Source of the DNA: Trujillonella endophytica
Lineage (GTDB): Bacteria > Actinomycetota > Actinomycetes > Mycobacteriales > Geodermatophilaceae
Direction: 5' to 3'
Length of the DNA: 64,000 nt
NCBI RefSeq assembly: GCF_900110555.1
Contig: NZ_FOEE01000001.1
Span: 248,001 to 312,000 of the forward strand
Positions 28,735 through 38,462 of the stretch are shown one piece after another. The translations under genes were made by a program, and so were the position numbers. Position 1 is the stretch's first letter. Each line of letters opens with the position of its first letter. The notes beneath the pieces are model-generated. The model was given only the letters and a program-made list of their open reading frames with translations. It was not told the DNA's origin and made no database searches.

Positions 28735-29706
28735 TCAGCGACGAGGGTCGAGGACCAGCTTGCCGGTGGTGCGGCGCGAGCGGATGTCCTGGTGGGCCTC
28801 GCGCACGGCCGACAGCGGGTAGCGGCCGCCGATCACCGGGCGCAGGTCGCCGGCCTCGACGAGCTGCAGGAGCTCGGTCATGGCGTCGTCCATCATCTCG
28901 GGTCGGGCCATGCAGTGGGCCAGCCAGAAGCCGATGACGGCGCGGCTGCGCTGCATCAGGGCGCCCGGGGGCACGGCCGGGGTCTCCTGCCGCGCGGCCA
29001 TGCCGTAGGTGACCAGCCGGCCGAAGGGAGCGAGGGCCGACAGCGAGCCGGAGAAGACGTTGCCGCCGGTCATCTCGAGGACGACGTCGACCGGCTTGCC
29101 GCCGTTGGCCTCGCGCAGCGCGGCGGCGAACGCCTTCGGGTCGTCGTCGGCCAGCGCGGGGTCGACGGTGGCGTCGGCGCCGAGCTCCTGGGTCAGCGCG
29201 CGCTTCTCGGGGCTCGAGGCGGTGGCGATGATCCGCCCCGCGCCCCAGCGGCGGGCGAGCTGGACGGCCAGCGTGCCGACGCCGCCCGCTCCCGCGATGA
29301 CGACGACGGTCTCGCCGGCGGCCAGGTGCGCGCTGGTGCGCAGCAGGTGCCAGGCGGTCGCGCCCTGGAGGACGACGGCCAGCGCCTGCTCGTCGGAGAC
29401 GCCGTCGGGGACCGGCCAGGTAAGCCGCGGGTGGGTGGCCGTCCGCTCGGCGTAGCCGCCGCCGTCGAGCAGGCCCACCACCCGCGGGCCCCCGCCGGCG
29501 GGGGTGCCGACGAACTCGGCGCCCGGGATCAGCGGCAGGGTCTGCGGCGCCAGGTAGGAGTTCTCGGCCTGGTGGGTGTCGGCGTAGTTGACGCCGGCGG
29601 TGGCGACGTCGAACAGCTGCTCGCCGTCCCCGGGGACGGGGTCGGGCAGGTCGACGACGTTCAGGACCTCGGGTCCACCGAACTCGGTGATCTGAACTGC
29701 GCGCAT
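28735..29706 (-). CDS. Zinc-independent quinone oxidoreductase (MDR family), intact copy
   Basis: 323 residues, full length for the quinone oxidoreductase branch of the medium-chain dehydrogenases. N-terminal catalytic fold starts MRAVQITEFGGPEVLNVVDLP; the Rossmann motif is VVVIAGAGGVGTLAVQLA (about 138-155), and LQGATAWHLL is the usual family motif. The structural and catalytic zinc cysteines are missing, so this is an NADPH-dependent, zinc-free enzyme reducing quinones or enones. Two broken copies of its first 38-46 codons lie upstream at 32.6 and 34.6 kb (see those entries). ATG 29706 starts the protein; a terminator follows. Confidence 0.93.
   Translation of the reverse strand: MRAVQITEFGGPEVLNVVDLPDPVPGDGEQLFDVATAGVNYADTHQAENSYLAPQTLPLIPGAEFVGTPAGGGPRVVGLLDGGGYAERTATHPRLTWPVPDGVSDEQALAVVLQGATAWHLLRTSAHLAAGETVVVIAGAGGVGTLAVQLARRWGAGRIIATASSPEKRALTQELGADATVDPALADDDPKAFAAALREANGGKPVDVVLEMTGGNVFSGSLSALAPFGRLVTYGMAARQETPAVPPGALMQRSRAVIGFWLAHCMARPEMMDDAMTELLQLVEAGDLRPVIGGRYPLSAVREAHQDIRSRRTTGKLVLDPRR
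29639..29694. repeat. Direct repeat core, copy A (inside the intact qor)
   Basis: These 56 bases encode about codons 5-23 of qor. They recur without change at 32652-32707 and with one substitution at 34629-34684, all in the same orientation. Inside the core, AGGTC and GACCT form a small inverted pair 13 bases apart. Confidence 0.95.
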
Positions 29707-29873
29707 GGAGAGGACGCTAGGGGACGACGCCGGCGCGACGGTACGCGGCCGAGCGCCGCCCCAGATCCTCTGCGGAGGCGCTCGGGCCAGGGGTCCTCTC
29801 GCCACGGCGAGCGCACTGCAGTTCCTCGTCGACGTATGGTTCGCGCCCCATGTGCGGTGGCAACCGTCGTACG
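29707..29873. other. Junction upstream of qor
   Basis: No gene supported. This is the border between the intact qor and the first accessory module; no integrase, tRNA or inverted repeat was seen. Confidence 0.4.
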
Positions 29874-29889
29874 TCGAACGTATGTTCGA
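29874..29889. promoter_or_regulatory. LexA-binding SOS box
   Basis: TCGAACGTATGTTCGA is a perfect 16-base palindromic match to the actinobacterial LexA consensus TCGAAC-N4-GTTCGA known from mycobacteria. It lies 86 bases before the possible gene at 29976 on the plus strand and 167 bases upstream of qor on the minus strand, so either could be DNA-damage inducible. The plus-strand gene is closer. Confidence 0.8.
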
Positions 29890-29975
29890 TACATGCCACC
29901 GACGCGACCACTGCTGCACGGTTGCTCCCGCCATGGGCGCGCGCCCGAGGTGTCGGATCTCGCCGGGAGTGCGTC

Positions 29976-30368
29976 ATGACGATGTCGACACTGCATCGGC
30001 CCCGGGAAGGCGCCCGTTTCGTCCTCTACGACGCCGGGCGGCAGCACACGCCACCCATCCCCGTGCCGCGCGAGATCGACGAGGACCTGCCGGCGGGCTG
30101 GCGGCGCGACCCGGCGCACCCCCGCCGCGTCCACCTGCCGGACCCGGGCCGTTGTCCGCACGGCTCGTTCCCCCGGTACGCGGCGCGGAACTGCTGTGCT
30201 CGCGGTCGGGGGACCGCGGACGTCGGACCGGCGGTCGCTCGCCAGCCCCATCGGGCCGCTTGCCGGGCGGTCGGCGGCGCCGTCGACGATCTGGGCTGGG
30301 GCCCACGATCACGGGCTTCGAGCGCGTCCGGTCCGAGGAGTGTGCTGGCCGAACACCGTGCAGGGTGA
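29976..30368 (+). CDS. Possible LexA-controlled small protein, unknown
   Basis: 130 residues, unrecognised. The first 60 residues look like a real folded protein (EGARFVLYDAGRQHTPPIP, EIDEDLPAGWRRDPAHPRRV, RCPHGSFPRY) with a basic, proline-rich character. From about residue 68 the sequence turns into Arg/Ala/Gly-rich text typical of a shifted frame. The gene may therefore be frameshifted or end early. Support comes mainly from the LexA box 86 bases upstream. ATG 29976 is chosen over the ATG at 29850, which would place the LexA site inside the gene. Confidence 0.35.
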   Translation: MTMSTLHRPREGARFVLYDAGRQHTPPIPVPREIDEDLPAGWRRDPAHPRRVHLPDPGRCPHGSFPRYAARNCCARGRGTADVGPAVARQPHRAACRAVGGAVDDLGWGPRSRASSASGPRSVLAEHRAG

Positions 30369-30615
30369 CGACGAACGGCGGGCGTTCAGCCGCTCCGGGT
30401 CAGGGCGACACGAGCCGAGCCCCACCGCGACGTCGACATCCGGCCAGGCCTGGAAGCGCGCCGCTGCTGGAGGTCGCCGACGGGGCGGACAGGCGGCAGC
30501 AGCGATCCCGGCAGGCAGCCGTCCATCTGGCGTCGCGTCGACCGGCACCGGTGAGGAATGGGGGTGAGGCCATGACCTCGTCACGCGCGAACGTCGTTCC
30601 GGCCGGTCCCGCCGG
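30369..30615. other. Non-coding stretch before relZ 3' end
   Basis: 247 bases in which no frame gives a convincing protein on either strand. It may contain decayed remains of the preceding small gene. Confidence 0.4.
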
Positions 30616-32352
30616 TCAGCCGCCGGCGAGCCGCTGCAGCCGGGTGGCCAGCGCGGTCCGCCGGTCGGCGTTGCCGTGCAGGTCCACGTACCGCTGCCCG
30701 AAGCTTGCCAGCAGCGTGTCGTCCAGCCGGCGCACGGCACCCGGGGGGTAGCGGTAGTCCATCCGGGCGGTGATGCCGCTGTCGTCGGCGCCGCGCAGCA
30801 CCTCGCCCAGCTCCACCAGGCTGGTCACGCCCAGTTCGAGCAGCAGGCCGGAGATCCAGGTGTAGTGATCCGGGCGCGACCAGCCGGCGTCGGCGTACTG
30901 CCCGGCCAGGAACGCAGCCAGCTCTCGGGGCGCGATCCGGGGGTCGTCGGAGTCGGTGTCGTCGGTCTCGTCGCCGGGAACTGGTGCCCGAAGGCGCTCG
31001 CGGATCGCGGTGAACTCCCGATCGGCCAGCTCCAGCAACCCGGCGGCGAGAGTGAACCGGCGGTCGAACTCGGAGGCGTGCTCGTCCGGCACCGTGCCCT
31101 TGTAGCGGATGTCGTGCTCGAACTCGGCCCAGGCATGCTGCAGCACAGTGCGCACCTGCACCTGCACCACGCGTCCGGCCAGCTCCGGCAGCTCGGCCGC
31201 CCGACCCGGGTCCACGCCGATCAGCAGGTGCCGGCTGGAGTAACCGAACCGGCCCTGCTGCGCGGTCCGCCGCCCCATGTCGCGGTCGTCGATCACCCGC
31301 ACCTGCGCAGCGAGCAGCTCGGCGACCGCCTCCACGTCGCTCTGCACGTAGGTGATCACCCGCACGCCGATCTGGTCGGTGATCTCCCGCGCCGGGTCTG
31401 GATAGACAGGCACGCCGTCGACCTCGCGAGCCGCCTTCTCCGCGAACGAGGCGATGGTCTTGGTCCGCCCGGTCACCGACAGGTAGTTGATCCCGGCGTC
31501 GTCGAGCACCTCGGTGACGAGCGCGAGCGCCCGCGCCCCGGCGACCAGGGTCTCGGGCCGGCCGTCGGCGAACGCCTGGATGGCCTGCTGCACCGGGTCG
31601 GGCGGGGGAGCGGTCACCCGGGGGCCGGGCTCCAGGTCCGGCGGCAGGGTCGGGGTCACGATGGCACCGCCGGCCGCGTCGCCGTAGACGGTCACCTCGC
31701 CCGGGCGCCGGACGGCGATCCATCCCACGTAGGCGCACACGACGGCGTCGACCTGGTCCTCCGCCACTCGTAGCTCGCTCTTGCGGGTGGCGGCCTGCAC
31801 CTGCTGGCGCAGCGCGGCGAACGGTGCACCGAGGTCGAGCTCGACCACCGCGCCGAGGAGGTCGATGAGCAGCAGCAGCTCCGTGCGCATCTGCTCGAGC
31901 ACCCGGCCCGGCTTGTTCTTGTACTTCAGCGTGCGGCCCAGCCGGAACAGCGCCACCGTCGCCGCATGCGGGTAGACCTCGATCGCCCGGCGGTCGCGGC
32001 CCGAGCGGGGGTCGAGGTCCAGCCGTAGGCGCCGGCCGATCCGCCCTCCGCGGGTGTCGCCGTCGGTGAACTCCGGTTTGCCGGTGTTCGTGGGGTGCGC
32101 TCCGGCCTGGAACCTCGCGAAGTCGGCGTTCAGCGCCCGTTCGGCGGCCCGGTTCCCGGTGGCGTTGGTGACCACCAGCGGGGCGTCGATCGCCACGATG
32201 CACGGGCCGGCGGTGAACGGGGCCAGCGCGGTCTCGATCTGCTCGTCGGTGCGCACCGCGCTGACGTGCACCAGCCGGCCGTCGTCGTCCAGCACGGCGA
32301 GGCCGGTGGGTTGCTTGAGCCCCCAGGCGAGGTCGATCCCGATGTGCTGCAC
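30616..32352 (-). CDS. relZ: RelZ-like fusion: DUF429 (RNase-H-like) plus (p)ppGpp synthetase domain
   Basis: 578 residues. Domain 1 (about 1-215) is DUF429, an RNase-H-like fold, with acidic residues in HIGIDLAWG, VAIDAPLVV and AEDQVDAVV. A Pro-rich linker leads to domain 2 (about 255-420), a RelA/SpoT synthetase domain: TGRTKTIASFAEKA, ITDQIGVRVITYV, GRFGYSSRHLLIGV and VVQVQVRTVLQHAWAEFEHDIRYKG. A helical C-terminal part follows (about 425-578). The same order is known from Mycobacterium smegmatis RelZ (MS_RHII-RSD), reported to combine RNase HII and (p)ppGpp synthesis. The residue usually Glu in the ExQxRT motif is Gln here. GTG 32352 makes the protein begin at VQHIGIDLAWG, as expected for the fold. 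Confidence 0.82.
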   Translation of the reverse strand: MQHIGIDLAWGLKQPTGLAVLDDDGRLVHVSAVRTDEQIETALAPFTAGPCIVAIDAPLVVTNATGNRAAERALNADFARFQAGAHPTNTGKPEFTDGDTRGGRIGRRLRLDLDPRSGRDRRAIEVYPHAATVALFRLGRTLKYKNKPGRVLEQMRTELLLLIDLLGAVVELDLGAPFAALRQQVQAATRKSELRVAEDQVDAVVCAYVGWIAVRRPGEVTVYGDAAGGAIVTPTLPPDLEPGPRVTAPPPDPVQQAIQAFADGRPETLVAGARALALVTEVLDDAGINYLSVTGRTKTIASFAEKAAREVDGVPVYPDPAREITDQIGVRVITYVQSDVEAVAELLAAQVRVIDDRDMGRRTAQQGRFGYSSRHLLIGVDPGRAAELPELAGRVVQVQVRTVLQHAWAEFEHDIRYKGTVPDEHASEFDRRFTLAAGLLELADREFTAIRERLRAPVPGDETDDTDSDDPRIAPRELAAFLAGQYADAGWSRPDHYTWISGLLLELGVTSLVELGEVLRGADDSGITARMDYRYPPGAVRRLDDTLLASFGQRYVDLHGNADRRTALATRLQRLAGG

Positions 32353-32576
32353 GGGGTCAGCTTGCCCTGCCCCGCACGTCGTCGGGGCTCGTCCCGCGGA
32401 GTCTGCCCGGCGGGTGCGTGTGACCGTCTGCTCGAGGTCGTTCGGACGAGCGCCGTTCCACTGGCCTGATCGCGGGGGAGCCAGTGACCGCATCGCCGAC
32501 CAGCACGTCGTGGCAGCGACGGGGATGCGCGCGGGCTGCGTCGCGCACGCGAGGTGTCTCAGGTCAGTTGCGAGAC
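32353..32576. other. Gap holding a solo inverted repeat
   Basis: No gene supported in this 224-base stretch upstream of relZ. Its right edge carries the inverted repeat TGTCTC (32555-32560) and GAGACA (32572-32577), 11 bases apart, which looks like one end of an insertion sequence. No transposase frame is present. Confidence 0.4.
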
Positions 32577-32577
32577 A
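32555..32577. repeat. Solo inverted repeat, possible insertion-sequence end
   Basis: TGTCTC-N11-GAGACA. On the minus strand it directly truncates the second qor fragment: the frame runs into the repeat and stops at a TGA inside it. The style resembles terminal repeats of actinobacterial insertion sequences, from memory; a second end was not found. Confidence 0.4.
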
Positions 32578-32718
32578 ACCGGTGGTGGGTGTCTGCGACA
32601 TTGACGCCGGCGGCCGAACCGTCGACGAGCTGCTGGCCGTCCCCGGGCACCGGGTCGGGCAGGTCGACGACGTTCAGGACCTCGGGTCCACCGAACTCGG
32701 TGATCTGCACGGCTCGCT
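32577..32718 (-). pseudogene. Broken qor 5' end, copy B (codons 2 to about 46)
   Basis: Translating the minus strand gives RAVQITEFGGPEVLNVVDLP, continuing through DPVPGDGQQL and GVNVADTHH, clearly the first 46 codons of the quinone oxidoreductase at 28735-29706. The ATG has become CAG, the part after codon 24 has drifted (EQLFDVATAG is now QQLVDGSAAG), and the frame is cut at codon 47 by an inverted repeat. The central 56 bases are still identical to the intact gene. It lies 6 bases beyond the stop of the downstream-reading SpoIIE gene. Confidence 0.9.
32652..32707. repeat. Direct repeat core, copy B
   Basis: All 56 bases are identical to 29639-29694, in the same orientation, 3013 bases further on. 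The bases either side differ at many positions. Confidence 0.95.
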
Positions 32719-32723
32719 GGAGG

Positions 32724-34430
32724 TCAGGTCAGGGCTTGGCCCCCGGTGAGGTTCGCCGTTCCCGCCCCCTCGCTGTCGCCGCTGCCACTGCTGGTGGCCC
32801 CGCCGGCCGTCTTGACGTCGCAGCGCTTCCCGGCCGGCGTCGTCCAGGACTCCGGGGCGTCGGCGCGCGACGTCGTCCAGCGCAGCGCGAGGAGGACGGT
32901 GTCGTCCGTCGCGCCGTCGGCGGTGAGTGTCCGCATCACCTGGTCGACGATCCCGTCCAGTGGCGCTCCGTCCGCGGACACCACGGCGTCGTGCAGTCGG
33001 GCCAGCCCGGTGTCGATGTCCTCGCCGCGGCGCTCGATCAGTCCGTCGGTGAACGCCAGCAGCGTGCCCGCGGGCGGCAACGCCAGTTCGGTGGCCGCCG
33101 GCGGAGCGGGCGTCTCCACGCCGACCGGTGGCGCTACCGGGCAGTCGAGTGTCCGGGCGCGGCCGCCGGTGACCAGCAGCGGAGGGAAGTGCCCGGCACA
33201 GACCAGTCGCAGCCGGCCGGCGTGCGAGTCGAGCTCCCCGATGAGCACCGTGGCGAACTGGTGATCCGTGTTCACGTCCAGCAGCCGATGCAGCTTGGCG
33301 ACCACCGTGGCGATGTCGTCGCCCTGGGCGAGGTAGGCGCGGACGGCGAACCGCAGCGAGGCCATCGTGGTGGCCGCCGGCAGCCCGCGGCCGGAGATGT
33401 CGCCCACGACGAACACGCAGCATCCGGGCCCGCGAGGGATCAGGTCGAACCAGTCTCCGCCGACGTCGAGCTCGTCGACGCCCGCGACGTAGCGGGCGGC
33501 GATCTCCAGCCCGTCCATGCGCGGTACCTCGGGCAGCATCGCGTGCTGCAGGGTGCCGGCGATGGAGCGCTGCTGCTGATAGAGCCGCTCGTTGTCCGCC
33601 GCGAGCCGCTCGGCGACCGCCTGCCGCCGGGACAACGCCGTGACGCCGGCGGCGCCGGCCACGGCCAGCGCGCTCCCTGCCCCGAGCACGATCCAGGGCA
33701 GTGCGGTGGACAGCGGACTGGTCAGTGGCTCCGGCGCAGCCCCGACGACGGTGAGCACGGTGTCGCCGAACGGCAAGGTGGCCGTCTGGGTCTGTCCGCC
33801 GATCGGCGCTGGGGCGGTGGAGAGCAGCAGCTGGTCCGCCACCGTGGTCCGGCCCAGGTAGACGGCGAAGTCCAGCCCGCCGAACGCGGCGTCGTCCGGG
33901 TCCGTCGGCTGAGGTTCCGGCGACACGACGGACTCGGCGTAGACCACCAGCCCCGCCCCGTCCCGCGGCATCACAGCGACCGCCAGCCGATCCGTGTCAC
34001 CGGGCAGGATCCCGGCCACGGCCAGCTGGGCGTCCGGCATCAGCCCGGTGAAGAAGGACGACTCCAGGCCGCCGTCGGGCAGCCGTGGTTCCTCGCCCGC
34101 TGTGGCCAGCAGCTCCGCCGGCCCATCGCCCGTCCGCAGCAGGGACAGGGAGGCGAACGTCCCGGCCGGGCTGATCCGGCCGGCCGCGAACCGCTCGAAG
34201 GGCTCGGTCGCGGCATCGGTCGCCATCGCTACCTGTCCGGCGTCGACGAGCTGCACCTGGAGGAGGGAGACGCCGCCACGGAGCACGCTCGCGGCCTGCT
34301 CCACCTGCCGGTCGAGCAGGTTCTCGTTGGCATCGGCCTCGACCCGCCAGGCGAGCCACGCGAGGACCGCCGTGATCGCGAGGACCCCCACCGCGACGAG
34401 CGCGCCGATCCGGCGAGGGCTGCGGGTCAT
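32724..34430 (-). CDS. Membrane sensor SpoIIE-type (PP2C) phosphatase
   Basis: 568 residues. One helix at about 8-27 and a second at about 245-270 enclose an extracytoplasmic sensor region (about 28-244). A signalling helix (about 272-305) leads into the PPM phosphatase domain (about 310-515), with its metal-binding acids in LDVGGDWFDLI, FVVGDISGRGLPAA and GATDDTVLLAL. Such RsbU/RsbP-type proteins dephosphorylate STAS anti-anti-sigma factors to release a sigma factor. About 50 extra low-complexity residues follow (ending GGQALT), and the stop lies next to qor fragment B, suggesting the original end was lost at a junction. ATG 34430 has TAGCCT 10 bases before it. Confidence 0.9.
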   Translation of the reverse strand: MTRSPRRIGALVAVGVLAITAVLAWLAWRVEADANENLLDRQVEQAASVLRGGVSLLQVQLVDAGQVAMATDAATEPFERFAAGRISPAGTFASLSLLRTGDGPAELLATAGEEPRLPDGGLESSFFTGLMPDAQLAVAGILPGDTDRLAVAVMPRDGAGLVVYAESVVSPEPQPTDPDDAAFGGLDFAVYLGRTTVADQLLLSTAPAPIGGQTQTATLPFGDTVLTVVGAAPEPLTSPLSTALPWIVLGAGSALAVAGAAGVTALSRRQAVAERLAADNERLYQQQRSIAGTLQHAMLPEVPRMDGLEIAARYVAGVDELDVGGDWFDLIPRGPGCCVFVVGDISGRGLPAATTMASLRFAVRAYLAQGDDIATVVAKLHRLLDVNTDHQFATVLIGELDSHAGRLRLVCAGHFPPLLVTGGRARTLDCPVAPPVGVETPAPPAATELALPPAGTLLAFTDGLIERRGEDIDTGLARLHDAVVSADGAPLDGIVDQVMRTLTADGATDDTVLLALRWTTSRADAPESWTTPAGKRCDVKTAGGATSSGSGDSEGAGTANLTGGQALT

Positions 34431-34585
34431 GGCGCCTCGGAGGCTACCGGCCGTCGTGCCGGTCCGGCGCCGTCTCGCCCGGAGGCGGCGCACCGTGTCC
34501 AGTTCGGGACGGCGTTCCTGTCGAGCGCCTGACCCCGAGGCCCCAGCTCGTCCTCGCCGGCCGGAGCAGGGCCGGACCGCGCGCC

Positions 34586-34696
34586 CTCGGCGGTGGCGAC
34601 GTCGAACAGCTGCTCGCAGTCGGGGACCGGGTCGGGCAGGTCGACGACGTTCAGGACCTCGGGGCCACCGAACTCGGTGATCTGCACGGCACGCAT
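34586..34696 (-). pseudogene. Broken qor 5' end, copy C (codons 1 to about 37)
   Basis: From ATG 34696 the minus strand reads MRAVQITEFGGPEVLNVVDL, PDPVPD, CEQLFDVATA and then leaves the qor sequence completely. Compared with the intact gene there is a 3-base deletion near codon 27. The ATG is kept and the frame stays open to 34427 but encodes nothing recognisable after codon 37. It lies between the two SpoIIE phosphatase genes. Confidence 0.9.
34629..34684. repeat. Direct repeat core, copy C
   Basis: 55 of 56 bases match 29639-29694 (one T to G change), same orientation, 1977 bases after copy B. Confidence 0.95.
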
Positions 34697-34790
34697 GCCT
34701 CGACCGCAGGTCCTCGGTCCCCGCGCGGCCCGGGTGGAGCGGTGGGCGGGGTCCTCAGGACGTCCTGCCCGGAGCCGGAGGGCTCCCGGC

Positions 34791-36113
34791 TCAGGCCAGG
34801 ACCGTGCCGGCCGGCACCGCGCCGGCCAGGCCGCGGGCGAGCTCGTCGTCCCGCGGCGGCCCGTTCCACTCGACCATCAGCAGCGACGCGTCGTCGGTGG
34901 TGCGGCCGCCGCGGCCGCGGAGCAGCGCGTGCGAGAGCAGCCGGACCGTCTCGGCCGGCGGCAACTGGTGCAGGGCGTTGTCCTCGATGAACTCGCGCAG
35001 CCGCTGCTCGCCGAACTGGGCGCCGTCGGGCAGCCGTTCCTCGACCACGCCGTCGGTGAAGAACAGGATCCGGTCCCCGGGCTCGAGCTGGGCGGAGTGC
35101 AGGGCCGGGACGGCGTCGCTCAGGCCCACCGGGCGGGATACCGGCCCGGCCAGTTCCTGGATCACCCGGCCGCCGCGGATCACCAGGCCCGCGGGGTGGC
35201 CGGCGTTGATCCAGCTCAGCCGGCCGGTCGTCGTGTCCAGCCGCCCGATGAGCGCCGTGGCGAAGCGCCCGGGGAACGAGCCGGCCATGACCGAGTCCAT
35301 CTCGACGTAGATGTCGGGGAGGTCGCTGCCGCTGAGCCGGCCGTGCCGGTAGGCGGCGATGAGCAGGGTCGCCATGGTGGCGGCCTCGACGCCGTGCCCC
35401 ATGGCGTCGAACACGGCCAGGTGCAGGGTGTTCTCGTCGAGGGAGTAGTCGAAGCTGTCGCCGCCGACGTCGTAGGCGGGCTCCAGCGCGCCGGCGAGGG
35501 CGATGTCCGGGGTCGTCATCACCAGCGGCGGCAGCATCTGCCACTGCAAGTGGGCGGACAGGCTCATCGGGGCCGACATCCGCGTCCGCGCGAAGGTGTC
35601 GGTGTACCCGGACTTCGTGACGATGAGGTCCGCGGTGAGACCGGCCAGCCGCTGGGCCAGCCGGCGGTCGTTGTCGTCGACCTCCGGGAGGGTCAGCGCC
35701 AGGACGCCGACGCGGTCGGAGCCGTCGAGCATCGGGACGTACAGCCGCACGGAGCCGTCGGGTTGCGGCACCTCGCAGCGGTGATCGGTGCGGAACGCCT
35801 GTCCGGCCGGGGTGGTGGCGATGTCCGCCGGCTCGCCGACCAGGCCGCGGCCGGCCAGCGGGCGGAGGACGGCGTGCTCGAAGTCCTGCAGGTAGATCGT
35901 GACGTCCCGGCCGCCCATCTCGGCGATCTCCTGGGCGACGAGGGGACCCACCAGCCGGGGCGGCATGAGGTGCGCGCGGTCGAGCAGCGAGCCGAGCAAC
36001 CGCTCGCCCAGGCTCTCGCCCCGGGAGCGCCCGTCGGGATCGGTGAAGCCGAGTCCGGCGAGCGAGTTGCGGGGGGCGGTGTGCGGGGTCATTCGTGTCT
36101 CGTGCTCTGTCAT
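34791..36113 (-). CDS. GAF-like sensor SpoIIE-type (PP2C) phosphatase, cytoplasmic
   Basis: 440 residues with no membrane helix. The N-terminal half (about 50-190) looks like a GAF-type sensor (DVTIYLQDFEHAVLRPL, GSVRLYVPMLDGSDRVGVLALTL). The PPM phosphatase domain (about 215-425) has acids in DVGGDSFDYSLD, AVFDAMGHGVEAA and RTTDDASLLMVEW, so it should be active. It would regulate a STAS anti-sigma antagonist; candidates in the window are the STAS proteins at 37.3 and 47.7 kb. ATG 36113 has AGGG close upstream; ATG 36092 is the alternative. It is not clearly in an operon with the membrane SpoIIE gene, being separated by qor fragment C. Confidence 0.9.
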   Translation of the reverse strand: MTEHETRMTPHTAPRNSLAGLGFTDPDGRSRGESLGERLLGSLLDRAHLMPPRLVGPLVAQEIAEMGGRDVTIYLQDFEHAVLRPLAGRGLVGEPADIATTPAGQAFRTDHRCEVPQPDGSVRLYVPMLDGSDRVGVLALTLPEVDDNDRRLAQRLAGLTADLIVTKSGYTDTFARTRMSAPMSLSAHLQWQMLPPLVMTTPDIALAGALEPAYDVGGDSFDYSLDENTLHLAVFDAMGHGVEAATMATLLIAAYRHGRLSGSDLPDIYVEMDSVMAGSFPGRFATALIGRLDTTTGRLSWINAGHPAGLVIRGGRVIQELAGPVSRPVGLSDAVPALHSAQLEPGDRILFFTDGVVEERLPDGAQFGEQRLREFIEDNALHQLPPAETVRLLSHALLRGRGGRTTDDASLLMVEWNGPPRDDELARGLAGAVPAGTVLA

Positions 36114-36271
36114 CCCTGCCCGCTCGTCGGCCCGCGCCGGATCGCGGCCCCCGCACTGTGCCGGGGCGCCACCGGCGGGGGCAAGAGTCTGGCCGCTGCG
36201 GCGCGCGGGCGCGGCGTGATGCGCGTCATGGCATCCCGCCGCGGGTGGCTGCGGGGAGGTGCCGAACCGCG

Positions 36272-36625
36272 TCAGGCGACGTCGGTGCGGGCGTCGGCCA
36301 GGTACTCGCGGACGGCGGTCTCGGGGACCCGGAAGGAGCGGCCCACGCGGACGGCGGCCATCTCGCCGCCGTGCACGAGCCGGTACACCGTCATCTTCGA
36401 GACGCGCATGATCGCCGCGACCTCGGCGACGGTGAGGAACGAGACGGCGGGGCGCGGAGCCGGCCGCTGGACCATCGGGGCGACGCCCTGCTGCGGGCGG
36501 GCGCCGGCCGGCACGAGGCGTCCCCCCTGCTGCGGCCAGCCCGCGGCGGGGCGGGCGACGGGGCGCTGGCCGTAGGCGGCCGGACGGGCGAGGAGGGGAG
36601 CGGGGGAGCGCTGGGGCAGGGTCAC
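36272..36625 (-). CDS. HTH (excisionase/MerR-like) DNA-binding protein
   Basis: 117 residues. A Pro/Arg-rich head of about 60 residues is followed by a winged HTH of the excisionase type at about 62-110: FLTVAEVAAIMRVSKMTVYRL, then VHGGEMAAVRVGRSFRVPE. The HTH is close, from memory, to the mycobacterial protein Rv0500A and other small conserved actinobacterial regulators of the BldC kind. Targets are unknown. GTG 36625 is chosen because an AGAGGA sequence lies upstream. It is transcribed away from the 400-base region that carries a palindrome. Confidence 0.82.
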   Translation of the reverse strand: MTLPQRSPAPLLARPAAYGQRPVARPAAGWPQQGGRLVPAGARPQQGVAPMVQRPAPRPAVSFLTVAEVAAIMRVSKMTVYRLVHGGEMAAVRVGRSFRVPETAVREYLADARTDVA

Positions 36626-37026
36626 GGGAGGTCCTCTCGGTGGCGGGCCACGGGGGGCGCTCGACCGGTTCGGTGATCCGGCGACGGTGCGCGTCCGTGC
36701 TGGCACTCAACGTAAGGGGACCGACCCGTCACAGGGCAGGACAGTGCGGACGAGAGGAAGCGGACCGCTTCGTCACATGTTGCCCGTGCGCACGGCGGGG
36801 ACGCTGCGATGCCCGAGGTGACAGGCGTGACGGGCGAGCCGGCCGACCGGACGCCCCGCCGACGCCGGCCGTGCGCGCGGTGACCTCGGTCACCCCCACG
36901 CGGACGGGCCTCACCCCTGGGAGCGGTGCGGGCCCGCCCTGGCTACGGGAGCGGGAGCCGGCCGCCGATGCGAGGAGGCAGGCGCGGCGTCGTCGCCGAG
37001 CCGCCAGCAGGGAACGGGGGAGCACC
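36626..37026. other. Divergent promoter region
   Basis: No gene is supported in these 401 bases between two divergent genes. The region contains the 16-base palindrome at 36879-36894 and an AT-richer stretch around 36708-36720 (CACTCAACGTAAGG) that may be the promoter of the HTH gene on the minus strand. Confidence 0.5.
36879..36894. promoter_or_regulatory. Palindrome GGTGACC-TC-GGTCACC
   Basis: A perfect 7-base inverted repeat with a 2-base centre, 133 bases before the plus-strand gene at 37027. It fits a dimeric regulator site; the binding protein is unknown. Confidence 0.45.
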
Positions 37027-37315
37027 GTGATCGTCCGGAACAGGGCCGTGAGCCCGGCCAGCGCGCTGACCGTGATGGGCGAGGTCGCCGACGTCCTCGA
37101 CCACCGCAGCACCACGGGCCGCCCGTCGGTCACCACCGCGGTCTCCGATCGCGTCGCCCTGGGCATCGCGGACATGTTCCGCAGCACCACGCCGTCGGGT
37201 CAGGTGCTCGAGCGGTTCGCCCGCACGGGAACGGCCGACAGCGCTGCGCTCATCGAGGCCTGCCGGGTCGAGCAGGGCTACGCCTCCGCGGAGGGGCACG
37301 CCGCGCTGTACTGCC

Positions 37316-38461
<1,146 letters not shown>

Positions 38462-38462
<1 letters not shown>

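Follow-up and report, generated by a model that had tools for sequence, protein, structure and literature searches.

Recurrent 5' ends of a quinone oxidoreductase gene point to serial insertion of small cassettes at a fixed codon in Geodermatophilaceae

Why should the beginning of one protein-coding gene recur, in the same orientation, upstream of the intact gene? The question is raised by a 64,000-nucleotide stretch of Trujillonella endophytica (contig NZ_FOEE01000001.1, positions 248,001 to 312,000; hereafter the window, from genome G000 of genus g1), in which qor, encoding a protein of the quinone oxidoreductase family, is accompanied by two further copies of its own 5' end. The original prediction held that DNA had entered this place repeatedly, each arrival bringing a new 5' end to the gene. 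Comparison of qor loci across the Geodermatophilaceae supports that view and places the end of the modules at one fixed base; we put the probability that small cassettes were inserted serially and site-specifically at codon 46 of qor, each supplying a new qor 5' end, at roughly 85%.

A repeat search of the window recovered the three same-strand copies (here A, B and C; Table 1) as a three-member family at 29570-29704, 32583-32717 and 34560-34694, with 87% and 71% identity to copy A and spacings of 3013 and 1977. The finer details originally read from the sequence also hold—a 56-base core is identical in copy B and differs at one base in copy C, copy B lacks its ATG, and copy C is one codon short—to which we add that copy C keeps its ATG and has lost its 3' part, junction included. 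The core itself, however, is conserved coding sequence of qor, and its proposed role as the recombination site is ruled out by fragment ends that peak at codon 46, where the sharp edge sits instead. What is diagnostic is the opposite end of copy B, where the junction CACCA|CCGGTTGTCTCGCAACTGACCTGA lies at 32559-32587. Copy A, the present-day 5' end, has its crossover point at the base where 60 of 108 displaced fragments found across the family end, and we propose that it was supplied by the latest arrival.

Those fragments come from a survey that began with a qor protein search of 112 Geodermatophilaceae genomes, 96 of which hold a clear orthologue and 16 none that is clear. We read 93 qor loci (the window and L062-L153), each up to ~18 kb upstream of the gene, leaving out three whose contigs start at or near qor (G029, G035 and G040); several others are short at contig ends. 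With a profile that spans the first 240 nt of qor and the 30 nt before them (threshold E <= 1e-3), extra qor 5' ends were found upstream in 55 of the 93 loci, 108 of them on the same strand as qor and 1 on the opposite strand. Three later segments of qor used as control profiles gave 2, 1 and 0 extra matches in the loci, and 5'-end profiles for three flanking genes, built from 22, 26 and 25 loci, gave 1, 0 and 1. By genus, the numbers of loci with fragments, of loci and of fragments were 1/3/2 in g1, 15/23/34 in g2, 5/12/9 in g3, 18/25/30 in g4, 1/1/2 in g5, 2/9/3 in g9, 13/18/28 in g10, and 0/1/0 in both g11 and g12. Twenty further stretches, 19 of them upstream extensions, yielded more copies, with 12 displaced matches (one of 48 nt) in the ~50 kb up to the contig end in G087. 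Successive copies in arrays mostly lie 1.4-6.5 kb apart (10th-90th percentile). Between relatives, qor adjoins different modules or none; gene order varies and the fragments accompany modules, which is neither the fixed arrangement nor the core without linked modules that would have spoken for an ordinary conserved sequence.

The displaced copies share a precise end. Sixty of the 108 stop at one base, after ...GCC GAC ACC CAC CA (codon 46), and beyond it runs a common non-qor motif, CCGGCTGTCGnnnAACTGACCTGA, in which, at 20 of 24 positions, a single base accounts for half or more of 71 copies (those whose match ends at the exact base or at most 4 positions past it, decayed copies having been dropped beforehand). 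A second form of the junction resembles TGTCGTGAGACCTACCTGAG. Searched as 26 fixed bases, at most 3 of them mismatched, the motif has 34 matches in 23 of 108 family genomes, and its reverse has none in the genomes listed. Twenty-eight of these matches lie on the qor contig, upstream and on the qor strand, up to ~42 kb away; the other six, whose adjacency to qor is unproven, are in G030 (contig C3, two), G068 (contig C48, one) and two contigs of G101 (three). Within an order-level sample of 298 genomes the motif occurs in 12, all among the 51 of Geodermatophilaceae, and in none of the 247 from other families. The exact degenerate motif was found in 8 contigs of a contig database, all Geodermatophilaceae (records very near the window were possibly excluded), and had no match in viral contigs. 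Separately, six viral-contig loci carry distant qor-like N-termini, at 41-50% identity.

Aligning 73 junctions revealed one inverted-repeat axis, between positions -1 and 0 (CACC^A|CC), with a score of 0.468; over 40 axes the mean was 0.259 (standard deviation 0.051) and the next best 0.317. Native qor scores 0.296 on the main axis, so the site is more complete in a displaced copy than in native qor. Module-like bases already stand at +1 and +2 (C in 90% and 77% of copies), and the exchange therefore lies at or to the left of position 0. Judged by the overlap and half-site rules of serine and tyrosine recombinases, this geometry is compatible with a serine integrase whose overlap is 2 bp, or with a tyrosine recombinase that exchanges a single strand; the usual tyrosine overlap of 6-8 bp, if centred on the axis, would not suit it.

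Two genomes show the site empty, with qor next to a divergent fabG, 108 bp away in G062 and 113 bp in G037. The two genes stand 2.3-17.4 kb apart in the 25 remaining loci where fabG can be seen, 17 of these 25 being without a fragment, and ~38.6 kb apart in G026. Of 47 close pairs of qor genes, defined by an identity of at least 93% after nt 200, discordant 5' ends (below 87% in the first 136 nt) are seen in 27, with the best single breakpoint at a median of nt 132 (quartiles 119.5 and 132) and 17 of the 27 breakpoints at nt 114-132. Pairwise distances in the first 136 nt also show the lowest correlation with the rest of qor (0.24, against 0.27-0.50 for other segments). A displaced fragment at one end and a regenerated target gene at the other are likewise found in islands of the dusA/prfC type.

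One module can be followed across the family. A gene fusing DUF429 to RelA occurs in 30 of 108 genomes, among them all nine of genus g9 (G078-G086), with 76-80% identity to the copy in the window; the four g9 genomes that have the fusion on the qor contig place it ~255-292 kb from qor. Of the 21 genomes outside g9, 18 hold it in the qor locus or an extension; in G030 its contig carries qor fragments as well, and in G018 and G068 it lies on contigs in which no qor was seen; G012, outside the 108-genome sample, has it at qor too. All 19 copies in the searched qor loci run on the qor strand, and in 9 of the 19 a qor 5' end begins within 80 nt of the end of the gene. Between genera (17 copies compared) DUF429-RelA DNA is 94.7% identical and the qor body 82.7%, the former being higher in 93 of 93 pairs; within genera the values are 95.0% and 88.7% (42 of 43 pairs). 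The module has thus spread between genera, and in g2 the qor 5' ends beside it are more alike than random (52 of 5000 draws reach the value). Its left boundary shows the junction at the compared place in the window, L083 and L097 only; in L089, L117 and L124 the left end is present and additional sequence lies within, and the rest are unrecognisable or degraded. Since the g9 copies stand away from qor wherever their placing can be seen, the module suggests an ordinary resident gene that was later captured. In L089 (1806-3655), the DUF429-RelA gene of G010 is divided over two reading frames and is probably a decayed copy within the array.

The remaining cargo is varied. A home-made gene finder called 304 genes in the 55 fragment-bearing loci, falling into 203 families, of which 158 have a single member and the widest two occur in 10 and 9 of the 55 loci; orientation is mixed, with 123 of the 304 genes on the qor strand. 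We scanned 150 representatives, out of 182 with at least 100 aa among the 203 families. Pfam matched 166 families, the largest being MFS and NAD-binding proteins (four members each); PADLOC matched 79, those listed including the CBASS proteins cyclase, E2 and NucC, as well as Pycsar cyclase, PDC-S44 and RmrA, mostly with one member each; and PHROGs matched 65, two of those listed being named transposase. No integrase appears among the 25 families listed for each scan. PIN and TIR domains, alongside matches to anti-phage models (CBASS, Pycsar, PDC-S44, RmrA), were observed among the cargo of several loci.

Against this background the window can be read module by module (Table 1). That the repeats delimit modules, as originally proposed, holds in that the fragments go with modules; the A-B stretch, though, is more than one standard module, since ~0.9 kb separates the DUF429-RelA gene from copy A here, compared with the 80 nt or less seen in 9 of 19 copies. 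This ~0.9 kb, partly common to the congeners G001 and G002, has an SOS-type box and small open reading frames (ORFs), and no qor fragment is recognisable in it. The box is the perfect palindrome TCGAACGTATGTTCGA, which we take to be of the SOS/LexA type; the two congeners G002 and G001 have similar palindromes before their qor genes, at -207 and -1289 respectively, and the small ORFs stand beside that of the window. Beyond copy C, no profile match exceeds the threshold in 34700-38200; the second SpoIIE gene there, between copy C and fabG, is perhaps an older module. It overlaps an ORF with a helix-turn-helix domain (36272-36706).

Table 1. Features of the qor locus in the window
Feature	Position	Strand	Remarks
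qor, quinone oxidoreductase family	28735-29706	-	Pfam ADH_zinc_N / ADH_N; codon 46 is the proposed insertion point
Copy A, present-day qor 5' end	29571-29706	-	136 nt, ATG to ...CACCA; crossover point 29571|29570
SOS/LexA-type palindrome (presumed), upstream of qor	29874-29889		TCGAACGTATGTTCGA
DUF429 + RelA/SpoT fusion gene, cargo of A-B stretch	30616-32355	-	579-aa conserved part; Pfam
24-nt half-site of module end, directly 3' of copy B	32559-32582	-	CCGGTTGTCTCGCAACTGACCTGA; consensus pattern with 2 mismatches
Copy B, displaced qor 5' end	32583-32739	-	Whole up to exact junction, start codon gone; profile positions 10-167, E 9e-33
SpoIIE-type phosphatase gene, cargo of B-C module	32724-34493	-	Pfam SpoIIE 3.5e-41
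Copy C, displaced qor 5' end	34588-34700	-	ATG present, 3' part and junction gone; profile positions 27-142, E 1e-24
Further SpoIIE gene, beyond copy C	34791-36710	-	Within qor-fabG interval; Pfam
fabG-like gene	37614-38462	+	Proposed ancestral neighbour of qor; 108 and 113 bp from it in two empty-site genomes

In the mechanism that we propose, qor would be the chromosomal docking gene of a Geodermatophilaceae cassette system, and each cassette would take the form of a circle in which the 24-nt half-site is joined to cargo and to an additional qor 5' end, the latter comprising the ribosome-binding region and 46 codons and running into the half-site as ...CACCA|CCGGCTGTCG. If the circle recombined with the qor of the chromosome at the end of ...CACCA (codon 46), the cassette would be inserted and its 5' end fused to the qor body, so that qor stays whole, whereas the old 5' end, now with the 24-nt half-site behind it, would be left at the far end; after repeated rounds, modules would stand in an array with a displaced qor 5' end between each and the next. 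We further infer which way and in what order the insertions took place, a recombinase supplied in trans and a qor function maintained throughout, and the system may be active at present.

Several observations weigh against serial insertion at codon 46. Thirty-eight of the 93 loci have no fragment, although, of the 19 such loci that include fabG, 17 hold 2.3-14.2 kb between qor and fabG. By profile match, 48 of the 108 fragments miss the exact base, being truncated, deleted or slightly extended, and 10 of the 27 mosaic breakpoints fall elsewhere (29, twice, 84, 91, 186, 219, 285, 594, 633 and 891), in close pairs that share genomes and hence are not independent. Over all genera, the 5' ends beside the DUF429-RelA module are only weakly alike (146 of 2000 draws reach the value, with one copy missed by the distance cut). 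The fragments show no gradient of decay with distance from qor (rho -0.06, p 0.51); the idea that each old 5' end is pushed outward therefore stands as an insertion model and not as a strict age order. The qor N-terminus had no match in plasmids and phages, and no circle or live excision was seen. The search for an enzyme gave the same kind of result. Hidden Markov models (HMMs), trained for tyrosine recombinases and for large serine integrases on 30 Geodermatophilaceae proteins each, recovered 30/30 and 29/30 of their own training sequences, which shows only that the models work. They detected no tyrosine or large serine recombinase in the 93 loci and the 20 further stretches—no IntI-type tyrosine recombinase, no Ccr-type large serine recombinase and no island integrase—and in the window they bear out the original report that no integrase is present. 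Large serine integrases occur in 55 of 108 family genomes and show no association with arrays (32 of 55 loci with fragments, 20 of 38 without; p=0.67, genomes outside the 108-genome sample being scored as without one), and 7 of 10 array-bearing genomes tested have no Resolvase-domain match.

Which enzyme, then, could act at the site? A large serine integrase working in trans, from a phage or another mobile element, is possible if on balance doubtful. It would account for a discontinuity 1 bp from the symmetry axis (an overlap of at most 2 bp) and for conservation to +24, which resembles a half-site, but single-strand exchange by a tyrosine recombinase would yield the same junction, and both the association count and the Resolvase-domain result just given speak against it. 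In three genera we observed a large serine integrase near contig ends together with what we take, by resemblance, to be a replication-relaxation-like gene (L280:3747-5222, L284:9349-10824 and L285:9326-10786; genomes G030, G068 and G018). It looked like a candidate driver, since in G030 and G068 qor fragments occur on the integrase contig at a distance of tens of kb; but the adjacency of these contigs to qor is unproven, and the stretches around the integrases of all three contain no qor fragment or motif. In additional stretches the HMMs match training-set genes only (L280, L284, L285, L286 and L297), and no qor fragment was found there.

That islands encoding their own integrase, of the dusA/prfC kind, entered many times at the 5' end and later lost the integrase genes we consider unlikely. 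The target logic is the same, the 5' end being replaced by island sequence as described for dusA islands (PMC4482086), and many fragments are truncated; yet the searched loci and stretches hold no such recombinase, no gene family occurs in more than 10 of the 55 fragment-bearing loci, copies are mostly 1.4-6.5 kb apart, and loss of the integrase every time with the 24-nt half-site retained seems improbable.

Of about the same low standing is the host pair XerC/XerD, or single-strand exchange of the integron type. Two tyrosine-recombinase families, taken for XerC and XerD, are present at 72% identity or more in 6 of 6 array-bearing genomes (30 of 62 matches compared), and the junctions reach the 95th percentile of random windows for dif-like arms. 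Against this, the dif-like score is -0.51 at the junction and -0.71 at the native qor site (random -6.44, dif 27.7), the closeness of the first two indicating that the resemblance to dif stems from qor coding sequence, and a third, looser integrase family (~33-47% identity) is found in all six genomes as well. The G004 member of that family adjoins a tRNA-Lys gene.

Homologous recombination alone, with modules moved between ~150-bp qor 5' repeats and gene conversion shaping the 5' ends, is less probable still. The 150-bp repeats are usable homology, gene conversion could account for the identical core of copies A and B, and shuffling of cargo would presumably need no dedicated enzyme; but such exchange would not join unrelated cargo to one 24-nt motif at one base or create an inverted-repeat site, though it may still aid the spread of modules. 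Chance or ordinary paralogy is ruled out by the control segments and by a search of the genome's own sequence with the qor 5' end, which gave 7 matches: the three window copies, one of 75% over 100 nt elsewhere and three marginal (E 9e-4).

Beyond serial insertion itself, we tentatively entertain a reading that falls short of even odds: a new gene-capture platform parallel to integrons, in which a protein-coding gene would be the capture site, rebuilt by each cassette, and the recombinase would either fall outside the recognised resident kinds or be a repurposed host enzyme. No description of qor as a cassette site appeared among the top-ranked literature matches. If correct, this would explain how the soil actinobacteria of an entire family collect and exchange genes one at a time, defence candidates included, through one chromosomal port; as no integrase stands beside that port to flag it, integrase-based island finders would overlook such arrays, and displaced gene 5' ends would be predicted to mark cassette arrays elsewhere, as a simple bioinformatic signature. 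Being small, free of a recombinase and able to repair the gene that it targets, such a cassette could also find use as a genetic tool. Which enzyme recognises the codon-46 site is a question directly open to testing.

Known systems share parts of this pattern. According to Farrugia et al. (2015; PMC4482086), dusA-associated genomic islands enter a protein-coding gene at its 5' end, replace that end with an island-borne one and have highly varied cargo, the integrase being their sole universal feature. The qor arrays resemble them in 5'-end replacement and varied cargo and differ in small module size, in arrays of up to 12 displaced copies and in that no integrase was found. The qor system should not be filed as an integron, a staphylococcal cassette chromosome (SCC) element or a dusA-type island, for the recombinase that defines each was not found at the loci. 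SCC elements and composite islands insert serially at the 3' end of rlmH/orfX in staphylococci and normally encode Ccr serine recombinases; the qor arrays are like them in serial insertion at one gene end with repeated att sites, and unlike them in using the 5' end and in having no detectable Ccr-type recombinase. Integron-like elements at rulB reportedly carry an integrase and interrupt rulB, and thus share with qor a single-gene hotspot of site-specific insertion while differing in both of those respects. The modules known as pdif or as integrative mobile elements exploiting Xer (IMEX) use host XerCD and carry no recombinase of their own, which qor modules share, although the target of the qor modules is not dif and their junction is no more dif-like than plain qor. 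Sedentary chromosomal integrons are arrays of small, varied, recombinase-free cassettes with a common recombination site, and at qor, too, a cassette array with a shared site stands at one fixed place; it differs in having no integrase gene beside it, in a docking point that lies inside a protein-coding gene and is remade each time, and in mixed cargo orientation. By analogy, the qor system would work like dusA/prfC islands, SCC arrays and integrons, with small recombinase-free modules as its units.

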